This document shows positions 29,347 to 36,049 of a stretch of DNA of 40,689 nucleotides, piece after piece. Every line of letters begins with the position of its first letter. Positions within the stretch are counted from its first letter, which is position 1. Both the position numbers and the translations under genes were made by a program. The DNA lies in the NCBI GenBank assembly GCA_014238965.1, contig JABAAC010000032.1:1-40689 (forward strand), written 5' to 3'. This DNA comes from Phycisphaerales bacterium (GTDB lineage: Bacteria; Planctomycetota; Phycisphaerae; Phycisphaerales; SM1A02). The notes beneath the pieces are model-generated. The model had not been told where the DNA came from and ran no database searches. It saw only the letters and a list, made by a program, of their open reading frames with translations.

Positions 29347-31536
29347 CTAGGAGGTCTGCCCCAGCCGGCGGCGCAAGGTGGAACTCAGTCGCACCGTGTT
29401 TCCAATGACGCTCACATCACTGATAGCCATGGCTCCCGCTGCGATCACCGGCCCCCACGTGCCCAGCAGACCAAAGGCTGCAATTGGGATCATTGCGCTG
29501 TTGTAGACAAAGGCTAGAAAGAGATTTTGCTTGATCGCGGTCAATGTGCGTTTGGCAATAGTCACCAATAACGGCACCGCCGATGGCCGATGTGCTGGAA
29601 TGACCACGTCTGCAGCTTCGATAGCGACGTTTGTGCCAGATCCCACAGCCATGCCGACAGTTGCCCCAGCAAGTGCTGCTGCGTCGTTCAACCCATCGCC
29701 CACCATGATGGTGGTCTCGGGTCGGTTAGTCACCCATTGTGCCTTGGATTCTGGGGTTTGTCCTGCAAGAACATGTTCGAGGTCAAGGCCAATCGCGGTC
29801 GCAATTGCGAAAGCAGCTTCTTCTCGATCGCCTGACAACATGGTGACTTGTAAGCCGAGTTCTTGCAGTTCACGTATGGATGAGGCTGCGTCGGGAAGTG
29901 GCGCATCTTTGACGTCAATTCGGCCTCTTTCCACGCCATCGATTCGAACGACACACGCTGCGCGCGGGTCTCGCATTACTTCGACGGCTTTGCCATCGAC
30001 GGTCGCCTTGACACCCTGCCCTGGCACAGCGACAAAGTCATACGCCTTGGGGGGCGAAATGCCGCGTCGGTGTGCTTCGGCCATTACGGCTGTGGCCACG
30101 GGGTGTTCACTGGGTGACTCCGCTGCAGCGGCGAATCGGACAACCTCATCTTCGTCAGTGCCCGATTCGGCAATGACTGCAATGACTGTCGGTCGGCCCT
30201 CCGTGAGCGTGCCGGTTTTATCGAAGATCACATGTCTAACTGATGCGGCATGTTCGAGTGCCTCGGCTGATTTGATCAAAATGCCGCGCCGGCCGGACTC
30301 GCCCGTGCCGACCATAATGGCCATGGGTGTTGCGAGGCCTAGAGCGCACGGGCACGAAATGATGAGCACGGTCACGGCCGCGATCACCCCCGTCTGGAAT
30401 GGCGCCCAAGATCCTTCAATACCTGCAGCAATGGACCAGCCTGTGATCGTCAGAAGGGCAACGCCAAGCACGATGGGGACGAATACGGAACTCACTCGAT
30501 CAGCCAGTCGCTGAATAGAGGCACGTGATCCCATTGTGTTGGACACAAGTTCCGCGATGCGGGCAACGGTCGAGTCCGCGCCACTGGCTGTGGCTTCAAT
30601 GATCAGTCGGCCCACGGTATTGAGCGAACCACTGACGACGGCATCGCCTACGCCGCGCTGAACCGGCTCAGACTCGCCAGTGATCAGGGACTCGTCGATT
30701 TCAGACGCGCCCTCAACCACGGTGCCGTCGACGGGCAAGCGTCCTCCGGGGCGAACAATCAGCCTGTCACCTGGTGAGACTGTGGCAATCGCCACTCTTT
30801 GGGTTGTGTGATCGCCGGTGATGCGCTCCGCCGTGTCGGGTTGCAACTCGAGCAATTCACGAATTGCCGATCCTGCGCGGCGCGATGAACGTGCTTCAAA
30901 CCAATGCCCAAGACTAATAAGTCCAAACAGTACGGATGCCTCTGTGAAGTACATGGGTTGGCCGTGATCCACACCCACTCGTTCAAGGATAAAGAGCACC
31001 ACGGAGTACGCCCAGGCGGTGCCTGCTCCAATGCTGATGAGCGTGTCCATATTGGTCGTGCGACGCTTTGCCGCTTCGATCGCCGACATAAAAAAGCCCG
31101 GGCCAACGAGGACTAAGACAGCCGTGCCGGCGGTCAATTGCAACCACTGCAGCCACAGCATGGACTCATCGAGTGTCCAGGACATGATTGCTGTGGGCAG
31201 CCAGATGCCAAGTCCAATGATTGCACGCCGAGCCCATCGCCGTTCTTTGACGATGGCAGCAGCTTCACGTTCGCCTTTACGCAGAGGCGCGGCCTCAGCA
31301 GCGGGCTGTGACGGGAAGCCTGTGGCCGTCACGATCGCGGCGGCCTGGGCCGGGTCGATGGTGCCCACTACAGTGACGATGGCCCCGGGCACATTCACCG
31401 CAACATCCTCAACGTGATCATGGCTGATCAGGGCTTGTCGAATAGAACCTGCACAGCTCGCGCAGTGCATATCCTTTGTGGCGAGTTGAAACGACGGGGT
31501 CTGGGCCTGTTGGGTCGTTTCATTGGTCACTTGCAA
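29347..31536 (-). CDS. copA: Cu+-type P1B ATPase (CopA-like)
   Basis: 729 residues. One N-terminal HMA domain carries DMHCASC (C25xxC28). Then come the membrane segments, the A-domain TGE (in ITGESEP, 286-292), CPC at 395-397, phosphorylation DKTGT (439-443), the SEHP motif (476-479) and GDGLND (613-618). N671-x6-YN (678-679) matches the Cu+-pump signature of the next-to-last helix. In the last helix the usual MxxSS reads MAISD (M703...D707), so one proposed Cu-ligand serine is Asp. The start is a TTG at 31536, or more likely the GTG at 31530, which has CGGAG eight bases upstream. A 12-bp palindrome CCTCCTAGGAGG straddles the stop codon. Confidence 0.93.
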   Translation of the reverse strand: MQVTNETTQQAQTPSFQLATKDMHCASCAGSIRQALISHDHVEDVAVNVPGAIVTVVGTIDPAQAAAIVTATGFPSQPAAEAAPLRKGEREAAAIVKERRWARRAIIGLGIWLPTAIMSWTLDESMLWLQWLQLTAGTAVLVLVGPGFFMSAIEAAKRRTTNMDTLISIGAGTAWAYSVVLFILERVGVDHGQPMYFTEASVLFGLISLGHWFEARSSRRAGSAIRELLELQPDTAERITGDHTTQRVAIATVSPGDRLIVRPGGRLPVDGTVVEGASEIDESLITGESEPVQRGVGDAVVSGSLNTVGRLIIEATASGADSTVARIAELVSNTMGSRASIQRLADRVSSVFVPIVLGVALLTITGWSIAAGIEGSWAPFQTGVIAAVTVLIISCPCALGLATPMAIMVGTGESGRRGILIKSAEALEHAASVRHVIFDKTGTLTEGRPTVIAVIAESGTDEDEVVRFAAAAESPSEHPVATAVMAEAHRRGISPPKAYDFVAVPGQGVKATVDGKAVEVMRDPRAACVVRIDGVERGRIDVKDAPLPDAASSIRELQELGLQVTMLSGDREEAAFAIATAIGLDLEHVLAGQTPESKAQWVTNRPETTIMVGDGLNDAAALAGATVGMAVGSGTNVAIEAADVVIPAHRPSAVPLLVTIAKRTLTAIKQNLFLAFVYNSAMIPIAAFGLLGTWGPVIAAGAMAISDVSVIGNTVRLSSTLRRRLGQTS

Positions 31537-31576
31537 TACTCCGTGGAGGATGGGCCTGCTAGACTATCGCTCCCAG

Positions 31577-31867
31577 ATGATGAACGTTAGATCTATTCCA
31601 GCGGCACGACTTGCTGCAGCCCTAGGGCTGTTGGCAATGCTGCTGGTGACGTCTGCCCAACCAATGGGCGTGGAGCCTGTTGTTGGCTCGCCCATCACCG
31701 TGGTTTCCGGCAGCGAATGGATTGAATCTCCGTTCGAATCGCTTGGTGTGCCTCGCCTGCAACCGATGGGGGCTGTGCCGGCGCCTCGAGCCGGGCGGCT
31801 TCGCGTTCGCGAAGCCGATCGAGTGGGGCCACATCGGCTGTACCTGCCGCCACCCGCCGCCTGCTGA
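31577..31867 (+). CDS. Short secreted ORF upstream of secA (candidate secretion-monitor leader)
   Basis: 95-96 residues from adjacent ATGs at 31577/31580. A Sec signal peptide is evident: MNVRSIPAAR, hydrophobic LAAALGLLAMLLV, then TSA|QP cleavage. The mature part has no known fold and is rich in Pro, Val and Arg. It ends RLYLPPPAAC, a polyproline tract (residues 90-92) three residues before the stop. It lies 75 bases upstream of secA on the same strand, the same arrangement as secM-secA in enterobacteria, where a secreted leader stalls ribosomes to tune SecA. No SecM arrest sequence is present. No Shine-Dalgarno sequence is visible; GGAGG at 31545-31549 touches another in-frame ATG (31550) too closely to serve it. 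The ORF itself is moderately sure; the regulatory role is inference. Confidence 0.6.
   Translation: MMNVRSIPAARLAAALGLLAMLLVTSAQPMGVEPVVGSPITVVSGSEWIESPFESLGVPRLQPMGAVPAPRAGRLRVREADRVGPHRLYLPPPAAC
31797..31816 (+). repeat. Perfect inverted repeat inside the leader ORF
   Basis: GGCTTCGCG-TT-CGCGAAGCC forms a 9-bp stem with a tiny loop. An outer CTCGA (31785-31789) and TCGAG (31819-31823) can extend it with a bulge. It encodes the RLRVREA part of the leader and would be a stable mRNA hairpin about 120 bases before secA. Confidence 0.6.
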
Positions 31868-31873
31868 ATCCGC

Positions 31874-31890
31874 TAGCGGGTAACCCGCTA
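31874..31890 (+). promoter_or_regulatory. Hairpin between leader ORF and secA
   Basis: TAGCGGGTAACCCGCTA forms a 7-bp stem with a 3-base loop, 7 bases after the leader stop and 53 bases before the secA ATG. It lacks a U-tract, so it may be a weak terminator or a structural element in the secA 5' region. Confidence 0.5.
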
Positions 31891-31942
31891 TAGCAGTTCT
31901 GCACGGTCTATCACAGTCAACCAATCAATTGCGAGGTCATCC

Positions 31943-34900
31943 ATGGCCATTCCTGTTGTCTCCCCGCTCGCTAAGAAACTCTTCGGTACACGCAACGATC
32001 GTCTCGTCAAGCGATACCTCAATACTGTCGACGAGGTGTCGTCGCATGAGGCTGATGTTCGCCAGCTCGACGACGCCGCACTGCTCGCTAAGACGGAGGA
32101 GTTTCGAAGTCGATTCGATGATGGAGAGACATCCGAGTCTCTTATCCCGGAAGTGTTTGCTGTTGCACGCGAGGCTATGGACCGAAACGTGGGCATTCGG
32201 AACATCTTCGATCCAACGCAAGACTTCGATGCATCGCTGCTGCCCGATGATGTGCGAGAGTTGTACAACGACACACGCGCTGCCATGGAGGCCGCCGAGC
32301 CGACCAAGCCACTTGCTGCATTCCTCGGTGGATTGAATGAGGTACCTGCTTGGCAGTGGATGCAGATCCCAACGGCGATCTATGAGGCGGTTAGGGAGAT
32401 ATACCCCAAGTCGAAGCCCCCGTTCAGGGCCCGCCCGTTTGATGTGCAGATTCTCGGTGGCATTGTGCTGTTCGAGGGCCGAATCGCGGAGATGAAAACG
32501 GGCGAAGGAAAGACGATCGTTGCGCCGTTGGCGTGTTATCTCGCCGCGCTACAGCGAAAGCAAGTACATGTTGTCACAGTGAACGACTATCTCGTGCAGC
32601 GTGATCGCGATTGGACATTCCCATTCTTTCACGGCCTTGGCCTCACTGTCGGGGCGATTCATCCACAGCACGTGCTTCCACCACAACTCAAGCAAGTGAT
32701 GTATCGCTGTGACATTGTCTATGGCACCACTGCTGAATTTGGTTTTGACTACCTTCGTGACAACATGAAAATGTCCGCGCAAGAGCAGGTGCAGAAGCAC
32801 CTGCAGGTCGCCATCGTTGATGAAGTTGACTCCACATTGATCGATGAGGCCCGAACGCCACTGATCATTTCCGGGCCTGCGCACGATCACGAGCCTCGAT
32901 ATGCCTTGGCCGACACGCTTGCTCGCCACCTCATTGACTTGCAAAAACAATGGAATGTCGCTGACGAGAAGGTGCAATCCTGTCAGCTTCGTGTGTCTAC
33001 TCTTGAAGGTGATATTCGAAATGCTCGCGACAAGGCGAGTGTTCCAGCTCTAAAGGAGCAGATGGAGCAAGCTAAAGCGGACCTTCCGAAATTGGAGTCT
33101 GCCCGCGATGCCTACACGCAGTATTACGAAGTAGAACTCGACAAGAAACGCGCTACGCTGACTCACGATGGTATTTCGCAGGCGCAAACTGAGTCGGGCT
33201 TGGGGTCGTTTTACGTCGGTGAGAACATCGACATGCCGCACTTGTTGGAGCAGGCCATTCGTGCTCATGCTGTGTATCAGCGAGATCGTGACTACATCGT
33301 TGGCCCCGATGCCGAGGGGTCGCAGACGATCGTGATCGTCGATCAGAATACGGGTCGAAAAATGATCGGGCGGCAGTGGTCGGACGGATTGCATCAGGCC
33401 GTTGAGGCGAAAGAAGGAGTGCCCATCAAGCAAGAAACCCAGACGATGGCCACGATCACGATTCAGAACTTCTTCAAGCTATACGAGCGATTGTCGGGCA
33501 TGACCGGTACGGCGGACACCGAGGCTACGGAGTTCTACGAGATCTACAAACTAGACGTGGTGGTCATTCCCACCAATGTGCCCATCGAGCGTGCTGACCA
33601 TCAAGACGTCGTCTATCTATCTGAGAAGGATAAGACAAGTGCGATTTTGGAGGAGGTCCGCCGATTTAACGATGTGGGCCTGCCCGTGCTCGTAGGTACG
33701 ACGAGTGTTGAAAACAGCAAGATGCTCTCTACAGAGTTGGCACGTCAGTTTGGCGTCAAGCATGAGGTGCTCAACGCTGAACAACATGAGCGGGAGTCTG
33801 AGATCGTCAAGAGTGCCGGCCAGCTTGGCGCGGTAATGGTTGCCACGAACATGGCAGGCCGTGGCACCGACATCAAGCTAGGGGAGTTTAGCCGAGGGGA
33901 TCTTGTTGCCCACTGGAAGCAGCGAGATGTACTGCCTCGCGATGCAAGTGCTGACATGAGCGATGACGCGATCGTTGCAGCGGCTTGGCGTCACATTGCA
34001 CTGCGGGAGTTGGGTAAGTCTAAGTCGGACATTAATGATATGGACGATGCCGCGATTGAGCATGCATTGTTCGCACACTGGTATGTCGAACTTGGCTGGG
34101 CGAAGTCTGCCAAGGCAGATGGCATGTCGATCAATGCATTGCGTGAGGCGTTAGACAAGACAGGGTCAAGCGTATTGCACAAACTTCGTGTCTTTAAGAA
34201 CGTTGAGGATATGGGCGGCTTGCATGTGGTGGGCACCGAACGTCACGAATCAAGGCGGATCGACAACCAGTTGCGAGGACGTTCTGGGCGGCAGGGAGAC
34301 AATGGGTCCTCACGGTTCTTCCTGAGCCTAGAAGACCCACTGATGAAAATGTTTGCCGGTCCGACGACATTGAAAGTCCTCAGTCGCTTTGGCATGAAGG
34401 AAGGCGATGCGATTGAGCATCCAATGTTGACAAAGGCAGTCGGCAAAGCGCAGCGTAAAGTGGAGGAACGCAACTTCCTCATTCGCAAGAACATTCTTGA
34501 GTACGACGAAGTGATGGACCATCAGCGTCATGACTTCTATGGGACTCGTCAGCGTGTCGTTGAGGGTGATGGGCTGCGTGAACTCATCTTTGAGTATTTG
34601 AGTACGGCTGTTGAGGATGCGTGTTGGCGGTACCTGGACAAGAGTTATCGATCAGAGTGCATTGCTGAGTGGATTCGCGAGCATCTGAACATCTCTATTG
34701 AGCCCGAACGATTGAAGCTCGATGATCAAAACCAGTTGCAAGAGAGCGTTCGTGTGAACGCTGCGCAGGAAGTCAGCCATCTTGTACGCATCTCAATAGG
34801 TGAATTCCTTGCTGAAGACATTGATCTTGGTACAGGGAACGTGGTGCAGGCGACCGAAGGCGGAAGTGATTGGCAAGGGCTGGTGAACTGGGTCAATGGT

Positions 34901-36049
34901 CACTTCAGCATTGATCTAAAGATTGAGGACATCTGCGACTTGCCGCGTGATGAGATCATTCGGTCTGTCGAGGCGGCGGCAGAGTCTGCGACGGATGCAA
35001 TCGATCTTTCGCCGCTTGACACATTCTTAGTTGAGTCGTACGCGCATGCGGAGTTGGCCAAGTGGGTTGAGGCCCGATTCGGTGAAAAAATGTCAGCCGA
35101 TGCGTTCAAGGATGTGCAAACGCCAGACGAGGCTGTTGAGATCATTATTGGCGCGGCTCACGATTTGTATCGCCGCCGTGAGCGGTATTACCCGATTGAC
35201 TTTGCCATCGAGATGACAACAGCAGGCTTGAAGCAGGATTCCGAGGCTGCACTAGGCCAGTTTTGCAGTTGGGTGCGTTGCCGATACGAGTTGGATTGGA
35301 GCCCGGAGACGCTCCCGTCGGGTAATCCCGCTGAGATCAGGGCTGCCGTTGGAAAGGAAGCCGATCAGTGGGATACGGCGAGAATTGAAGATCGGGCAAG
35401 ACGGTTGGTCGATGGCGCGGGCACGGTTGATGCACTTGATGAGCGATTGAAAGAGCAACTGGGCGCCTCGTTCTTCGAGAAGGAACGCCTCGCCGCGGAA
35501 CTGGACATGGTTGCAGCAACCACCGCAAAAATTAAGTCAGTCATGCGCATGGAAGTTGAGCAGTTGGAGCGGTGGGTGCTGCTTCAAATTCTGGATGCAG
35601 CATGGAAGGAACATCTGCATCAAATGGATCAGTTGCGAGAAGCGATCGGCTATCGCAGTTTCTCACAGCGTGATCCACGAATCGAATTTAAACGTGAGGG
35701 TGCCTCGCTCTATGAAACGATGCAGGAAAATGTTCGTGATCGGCTAGTCGACATGGTGTTCAAGGTCCGCTTGTCACCGCAGGTTGCACCGCGTCCTGAC
35801 GAGCAAGGGGGTGCAGCGGCTCCGCCTCAGCAAGCACCGCAGCGTCAGCAGCGGCACTCTGATCCGACCGACCCTGCAAAGGCAGCAGTGCGTGCTGCAG
35901 CCGCGGTGGCCTCGGGCGATGCTGGTGCGCAGCGGTCATCTACTCGCTCACGTCAGCCGTCTCAGCCGACCTCGCTGGCGGTTGGTCGCAATGAGCCATG
36001 CCCATGTGGGTCAGGCAAGAAATACAAGAAGTGCTGCGGCGTTAAATAG
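31943..36049 (+). CDS. secA: Preprotein translocase ATPase SecA, greatly enlarged
   Basis: 1,368 residues against about 900 in Escherichia coli. It drives protein export through SecYEG. All core motifs are present: Walker A MKTGEGKT (184-191), Walker B IVDEVDS (291-297) with DEARTPLIISG, NBD2 NMAGRGTDI (636-644), TERHESRRIDNQLRGR (765-780), the IRKNILEYDEVMD region (847-859), LDAAWKEHLHQMDQLR (about 1217-1232) and the zinc-binding tail CPCGSGKKYKKCC (1353-1365). Extra mass lies in three places: a charged coiled coil in the preprotein cross-linking region (about 335-395), a lengthened loop in NBD2 (about 648-757), and about 200 residues of tandem repeats in the helical wing/scaffold region (907-1147). 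A Pro/Gln/Ala-rich linker (1280-1345) precedes the zinc tail. Weak ribosome site GCGAGG at 31931-31936. Confidence 0.97.
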   Translation: MAIPVVSPLAKKLFGTRNDRLVKRYLNTVDEVSSHEADVRQLDDAALLAKTEEFRSRFDDGETSESLIPEVFAVAREAMDRNVGIRNIFDPTQDFDASLLPDDVRELYNDTRAAMEAAEPTKPLAAFLGGLNEVPAWQWMQIPTAIYEAVREIYPKSKPPFRARPFDVQILGGIVLFEGRIAEMKTGEGKTIVAPLACYLAALQRKQVHVVTVNDYLVQRDRDWTFPFFHGLGLTVGAIHPQHVLPPQLKQVMYRCDIVYGTTAEFGFDYLRDNMKMSAQEQVQKHLQVAIVDEVDSTLIDEARTPLIISGPAHDHEPRYALADTLARHLIDLQKQWNVADEKVQSCQLRVSTLEGDIRNARDKASVPALKEQMEQAKADLPKLESARDAYTQYYEVELDKKRATLTHDGISQAQTESGLGSFYVGENIDMPHLLEQAIRAHAVYQRDRDYIVGPDAEGSQTIVIVDQNTGRKMIGRQWSDGLHQAVEAKEGVPIKQETQTMATITIQNFFKLYERLSGMTGTADTEATEFYEIYKLDVVVIPTNVPIERADHQDVVYLSEKDKTSAILEEVRRFNDVGLPVLVGTTSVENSKMLSTELARQFGVKHEVLNAEQHERESEIVKSAGQLGAVMVATNMAGRGTDIKLGEFSRGDLVAHWKQRDVLPRDASADMSDDAIVAAAWRHIALRELGKSKSDINDMDDAAIEHALFAHWYVELGWAKSAKADGMSINALREALDKTGSSVLHKLRVFKNVEDMGGLHVVGTERHESRRIDNQLRGRSGRQGDNGSSRFFLSLEDPLMKMFAGPTTLKVLSRFGMKEGDAIEHPMLTKAVGKAQRKVEERNFLIRKNILEYDEVMDHQRHDFYGTRQRVVEGDGLRELIFEYLSTAVEDACWRYLDKSYRSECIAEWIREHLNISIEPERLKLDDQNQLQESVRVNAAQEVSHLVRISIGEFLAEDIDLGTGNVVQATEGGSDWQGLVNWVNGHFSIDLKIEDICDLPRDEIIRSVEAAAESATDAIDLSPLDTFLVESYAHAELAKWVEARFGEKMSADAFKDVQTPDEAVEIIIGAAHDLYRRRERYYPIDFAIEMTTAGLKQDSEAALGQFCSWVRCRYELDWSPETLPSGNPAEIRAAVGKEADQWDTARIEDRARRLVDGAGTVDALDERLKEQLGASFFEKERLAAELDMVAATTAKIKSVMRMEVEQLERWVLLQILDAAWKEHLHQMDQLREAIGYRSFSQRDPRIEFKREGASLYETMQENVRDRLVDMVFKVRLSPQVAPRPDEQGGAAAPPQQAPQRQQRHSDPTDPAKAAVRAAAAVASGDAGAQRSSTRSRQPSQPTSLAVGRNEPCPCGSGKKYKKCCGVK
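34661..35383 (+). repeat. Four tandem protein-level repeats inside SecA
   Basis: Units start near residues 907, 980, 1038 and 1107 (34661, 34880, 35054, 35261), with their key Trp at 910, 983, 1041 and 1110. Short cores are AEWIREHLNISIEPERL, VNWVNGHFSIDLKIEDI, AKWVEARFGEKMSADAF and CSWVRCRYELDWSPETL. Each continues with an acidic helix. The core resembles the Escherichia coli SecA helical-wing segment (EEYLKNDFDLDL), so this looks like duplication of a native element. At the DNA level the copies are diverged. Confidence 0.7.

Follow-up and report, generated by a model that had tools for sequence, protein, structure and literature searches.

Does the short open reading frame (ORF) in front of secA in this Phycisphaerales genome encode an arrest peptide that monitors protein export, and by which route would a ribosome halted on it act on the gene downstream? 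The question arises from a preliminary description of the window, i.e., the whole analysed stretch of 40,689 nucleotides, which had reported a short ORF with a Sec signal peptide and an LPPPAAC end 75 bases before secA, and had proposed it to be a secretion monitor resembling the enterobacterial SecM but with a different arrest peptide. Every detail of the ORF was confirmed, and its assignment to uA_LPPP, an arrest-peptide family described in Planctomycetota by Fujiwara et al. 2024 (PMC10987492), was found to be well supported at the sequence level.

The ORF upstream of secA and the uA_LPPP family

The coding elements of the locus are as follows:

31577..31867, + strand: uA_LPPP arrest-peptide ORF, 96 aa (open frame, homolog comparison)
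31613..31648, + strand: hydrophobic core of the signal peptide, AAALGLLAMLLV (hydropathy scan; comparable segment in 197/199 homologs)
31778..31855, + strand: conserved C-terminal block, PAPRAGRLRVREADRVGPHRLYLPPP (pN/pS and alignment, 11 loci)
31844..31855, + strand: LPPP codons CTG CCG CCA CCC (sequence; stall position taken from the homolog of Fujiwara et al. 2024)
31943..36049, + strand: secA, 1368 aa, with SecA_DEAD, P-loop_SecA, PP_bind, SW and SEC-C domains

The 96-codon ORF (window, + strand) translates into MMNVRSIPAARLAAALGLLAMLLVTSAQ...VGPHRLYLPPPAAC*, whereby a basic N-terminus is followed by a hydrophobic stretch and the C-terminal end reads HRLYLPPPAAC. Signal peptides were called by hydropathy, without SignalP, both in the window and in the homologs, and for MMNVRSIPAARLAAALGLLAMLLVTSAQ a hydropathy peak of 2.66 was obtained. 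No Pfam or NCBIfam family matches the 96-aa peptide, nor was a meaningful match to it identified among solved structures. Because the upstream neighbour, a P-type metal ATPase, runs in the opposite direction, the run of + strand genes begins with the ORF. This neighbour (copper/heavy-metal type with HMA and E1-E2 ATPase domains; 29347-31536, - strand) diverges from the ORF likewise in many loci of the family, and no functional link between the ATPase and the uORF is evident.

One SecA gene was found in the assembly. Its product had been called enlarged, and with 1368 aa it is indeed longer than E. coli SecA, which has about 900 aa, but this size is normal for the order, where most of the open frames listed exceed 1250 codons. 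The alignment to the SecA family models is interrupted at about residues 935-1139, suggestive of an insertion at this place in the scaffold/wing region.

As published, uA_LPPP comprises 52 motif sequences, 50 of them with a signal, from Phycisphaerales, UBA1161 and WQYP01 (GTDB names) (PMC10987492); the closest named relatives of the window genome are labelled Phycisphaerales bacterium. Members of the family are secA uORFs of Planctomycetota/Phycisphaerales which encode fewer than 300 residues on the same strand directly upstream of secA, with an N-terminal signal, a spacer of more than 30 residues, LPPP or xPPP among the 15 C-terminal residues, a conserved C-terminus and divergent N-terminal parts. 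The window ORF was found to agree with this in every sequence property tested: it encodes 96 aa, its stop is separated by 75 nt from the secA ATG at 31943, it ends in LPPPAAC-stop, about 67 residues lie between the hydrophobic core and Pro92, and homolog alignments document the C-terminal conservation. Nothing defining differs, the window member having a longer, clade-specific block (PAPRAGRLRVREADRxGPxRLxLPPP).

For one uA_LPPP homolog a full stall was reported with B. subtilis ribosomes in vitro (fAP 1) and an index of 22.4 in vivo, while in vivo the same homolog had little effect on ribosomes of E. coli (index 1.59); substitutions of Leu and Pro weakened the stall, and toeprinting placed the P-site on Pro112 of L110-PPP (PMC10987492). 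Arrest thus varies with the ribosome and possibly with EF-P, for which a gene is present in this genome. By analogy with this one published homolog the window peptide is expected to stall at LPPP, with the P-site putatively on CCA 31850-31852 (codon 92) and the A-site on CCC 31853-31855.

SecM of Enterobacterales is likewise encoded by a short ORF immediately before secA, is exported and has a C-terminal arrest site, but it belongs to a different phylum and its FxxxxWIxxxxGIRAGP sequence is absent from the window ORF. The RQH/RAPP-type uORFs (ApdA, ApdP, uA_RQH, uDF_RQH) share with the window ORF the link to Sec, the Pro-rich C-terminal motif and the stall at the third residue, whereas their R/Q/H-A/G/D-P/G/S-P/G motif is replaced by L-P-P-P in the window. 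Membership in either group was ruled out, as the respective motifs are missing from the translated ORF. The earlier view that a different arrest peptide is at work was thus borne out, since the SecM sequence is lacking and a published family exists of which a homolog stalls ribosomes.

Distribution and constraint among relatives

The DNA before secA was taken from 141 loci belonging to the order of the window, 139 of which were found to carry an ORF on the secA strand with PPP among its final 15 residues. The two exceptions are a locus with only 126 nt upstream (contig end) and one whose ORF ends in GDLSPPRA (LSPP). Mononucleotide shuffles yielded such an ORF in a mean of 5.1 and a maximum of 9 of the 141 loci and the reverse-complemented sequences in 7/141, controls which rule out a chance ORF; LPPP itself occurs upstream of secA in 116/141 loci as compared to 0.45 in shuffles. 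The ORF is therefore near-universal in the order and not patchy. When used as a query against 151 genomes of the order, clear matches before secA were obtained only in its two nearest relatives, one of the same genus (46% identity) and one of another genus of the same family (69% across the C-terminal 36 residues).

A scan of genome contigs scored 72 of 76 named Phycisphaerae loci as positive, including one (L250) which is a spurious overlap with secA, and the four negative loci are distant SecA relatives. Variants occur in two neighbouring families within the class, mostly RLPPP in one (f11) and LPPP, MPPP or LAPP in the other (f9), and the 20 loci from other, more distant families of the class gave one 20-residue chance match only. 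Degenerate LSPP or LAPP motifs at the same position were observed in L138 (G082), L254 and L257, which suggests drift or variant arrest sequences. In L284, a locus from family f18 of this class, the LPPP ORF is replaced by a gene resembling elongation factor P, identified by eye, 52 nt upstream of secA; elongation factor P relieves polyproline stalling. The search of Fujiwara et al. started from annotated proteins (PMC10987492), which may be the reason why fewer uA_LPPP members were published than are found in raw DNA.

Constraint on the peptide was found to be concentrated at its end, with a pN/pS of 0.15 over the 26 codons that end with LPPP, as compared to 0.80 over the 26 codons before them (11 close relatives). 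Among 199 distinct sequences, Leu precedes PPP in 84%, position -4 is Leu in 50%, -3 is Leu in 47% and -2 is Asp or Asn in 57%, and 2-3 residues separate PPP from the stop in 82%. The core of the hydrophobic segment lies 30-135 residues (median 81) from the stall site, and the gap between ORF and secA varies from 53 to 330 nt among homologous loci. A fixed tunnel-facing end, with the rest being free apart from the export signal, is, as far as sequences can tell, the pattern of an arrest peptide. With the near-universal occurrence and the constrained C-terminus, the comparison among relatives that the preliminary description had called for was passed decisively, and its proposal of a secretion-monitor-like arrest peptide upstream of secA is supported by this conservation together with the stalling of the published homolog.

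The favoured reading, to which a probability of roughly 0.85 is assigned, is that the ORF encodes a uA_LPPP monitoring substrate whose stall is relieved by export and through which secA is raised when export is slow. Here, the ribosome would synthesize a peptide that starts with a Sec signal and, once the second Pro of LPPP occupies the P-site, would halt before the third. An active translocon would pull on the emerging signal peptide, thus releasing the stall and allowing the last few codons to be translated; upon slow export the stall would persist and secA expression from the same transcript would rise. Relief of the stall by export and the induction of secA are assumed by analogy with SecM, MifM, VemP and one RAPP-type relative. 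When protein export fails, the peptide very probably blocks the ribosome by which it is made and thereby adjusts SecA production.

Probable promoter and transcript

Upstream of the ORF one element is of relevance:

31560..31565, + strand: TAGACT, probable -10 box (TAGACTAT or TACACTAT kept there in close relatives)

The promoter signal shows only in the comparison across loci, as the candidate promoter of the window has a poor -35 match and no promoter is returned when the window is scanned by itself with a strict consensus. Over 197 loci, sigma-70-like sites in the 180 nt before the signal core scored 8.95 on average versus 6.04 in shuffled DNA, whereas no excess was found in the 180 nt before secA (5.62 versus 5.79 shuffled). 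The first in-frame start follows the -10 hexamer after 6-15 nt in 92 of 140 good sites and after 0-5 nt in 11 of 140. In the window (31537-31580) and at homologous places, e.g., in L094, L105, L109 and L114, TTGACC-18-GATAAT-like promoters were observed, with the ORF start located 6-11 nt after the -10 box.

The transcript is predicted to start probably at about 31571-31573, hence with a leader of a few bases, devoid of a Shine-Dalgarno sequence, before the ATG at 31577. As such a leader leaves no room for a Shine-Dalgarno sequence, near-leaderless translation is probable. The arrangement suggests that one near-leaderless transcript probably runs from the ORF through secA, and a start of secA transcription downstream of 31867 is unlikely.

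Possible routes from a stalled ribosome to secA

The RNA elements considered for the output step are:

31797..31816, + strand: perfect hairpin inside the ORF, 10-nt arms 31796-31805 / 31808-31817 (sequence)
31874..31890, + strand: hairpin in the gap, arms 31874-31881 / 31883-31890 (sequence)
31933..31936, + strand: GAGG, probable Shine-Dalgarno sequence of secA (sequence; similar GAGG/GGAGG in relatives)

The preliminary description had pointed to the two hairpins and to a 6-nt match of CCTCGC (31751-31756) with GCGAGG (31931-31936), and had related them to the SecM layout, in which the secA Shine-Dalgarno sequence is trapped in an mRNA hairpin until a stalled ribosome opens it. Both hairpins and the match are present in the window, but none of them is conserved in relatives. 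For the ORF hairpin no compensatory change was found in 11 close relatives, where 75% of the cells are paired as compared to 74.2% in shuffles; it is probably a by-product of the coding sequence. Relatives share neither the sequence of the gap hairpin nor the CCTCGC/GCGAGG match, and the gap cannot be aligned among them.

That a ribosome stalled at LPPP opens such a hairpin is doubtful. In favour of it, the whole 31577-31960 segment has a better fold than its shuffles (z -2.75), the lowest-energy structure takes in the CCTCGC/GCGAGG region, with CCTCGC pairing near the secA ribosome site, and a related secDF uORF, the one case for which Fujiwara et al. tested downstream induction, is known to work so (PMC10987492). 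Against the gate, the local fold from the stall site to secA is unremarkable in the window (z 0.43), and over 199 loci a ribosome footprint placed on the stall site hardly alters how exposed the secA ribosome site is predicted to be (change of 0.003, sem 0.004), no differently from footprints at other positions; in a local version of the test the change is 0.006 versus 0.010 in shuffles. Pairing between stall site and ribosome site is slightly above a block-wise shuffle (3.01 versus 2.53 pairs; excess 0.48, sem 0.25, not significant), but this excess vanishes versus synonymous recoding (0.21, sem 0.23); an earlier enrichment of 3.05 versus 1.77 was dropped, as its control did not keep the block composition. 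The opening of a hairpin over the ribosome site, as in SecM, is hence not supported by the folding predictions over these 199 loci. Structure just after the uORF stop (31868-31910 in the window) exceeds shuffles by about -1.1 kcal/mol (sem 0.2, 199 loci), which adds to what can be said for a gate, and this excess recurs without sequence conservation. The segment covered by the stalled ribosome furthermore pairs with the near half of the gap in excess of synonymous recoding (+1.21, sem 0.34), a control which is imperfect (pooled codon usage, mixed G+C). Both observations could reflect another kind of switch.

As unmasking of the ribosome site finds no support in the folding predictions, the output step may instead consist in a block of Rho-dependent termination, protection of the mRNA or a less direct structural switch. 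A transcriptional output, in which a ribosome halted at LPPP would keep Rho or the decay machinery away from the gap so that the transcript extends to secA or persists that far, as proposed for the copper-responsive uORF CruR, is accordingly a tentative suggestion: it would accommodate the missing gate in 199 loci and the variable gap length, CruR was modelled to act by Rho exclusion, and the gap has a modest C-over-G bias (0.105 versus 0.034 and 0.031 in the flanking coding DNA), but this bias is small, and a Rho loading site would be unstructured, in contrast to the gap with its additional structure. CruR (DUF2946 uORF, Bordetella) also invites the thought of metal sensing, since it is an exported uORF with a C-terminal Pro motif that controls its downstream gene and since a copper-type ATPase adjoins the window ORF, which ends in Cys, and is retained divergently in many loci of the family. 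However, the downstream gene is a different one, the constant partner is secA and not the ATPase, a single, C-terminal Cys is present, and only 36 of 199 homologs end in Cys; copper sensing was rejected as CXXC is absent from the peptide, and a metal-sensing uORF is highly improbable. An ordinary small secreted protein or chance ORF with incidental polyproline would be in line with the lack of a Pfam or NCBIfam match, but is close to negligible in view of the excess of LPPP over shuffles, the confinement of constraint to the C-terminus and the stalling by a homolog. The favoured reading, a uA_LPPP monitoring substrate, may be extended, though speculatively, to LPPP peptides being a near-universal, vertically inherited control of secA in this order that operates on near-leaderless transcripts by a route other than unmasking of the ribosome site, e.g., protection from Rho or decay.

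This kind of arrest peptide has already been published (2024); what is new are its near-universality in the order, the mapping of constraint along the peptide, the pattern of near-leaderless promoters and the negative result for a SecM-style RNA gate. With a near-leaderless promoter and no visible gate at the ribosome site, the output step may differ from that of SecM. The control appears almost universal across a planctomycete order in which a search based on protein annotation saw patches, and if this holds true, feedback on SecA by nascent-chain arrest would be the rule in this order.
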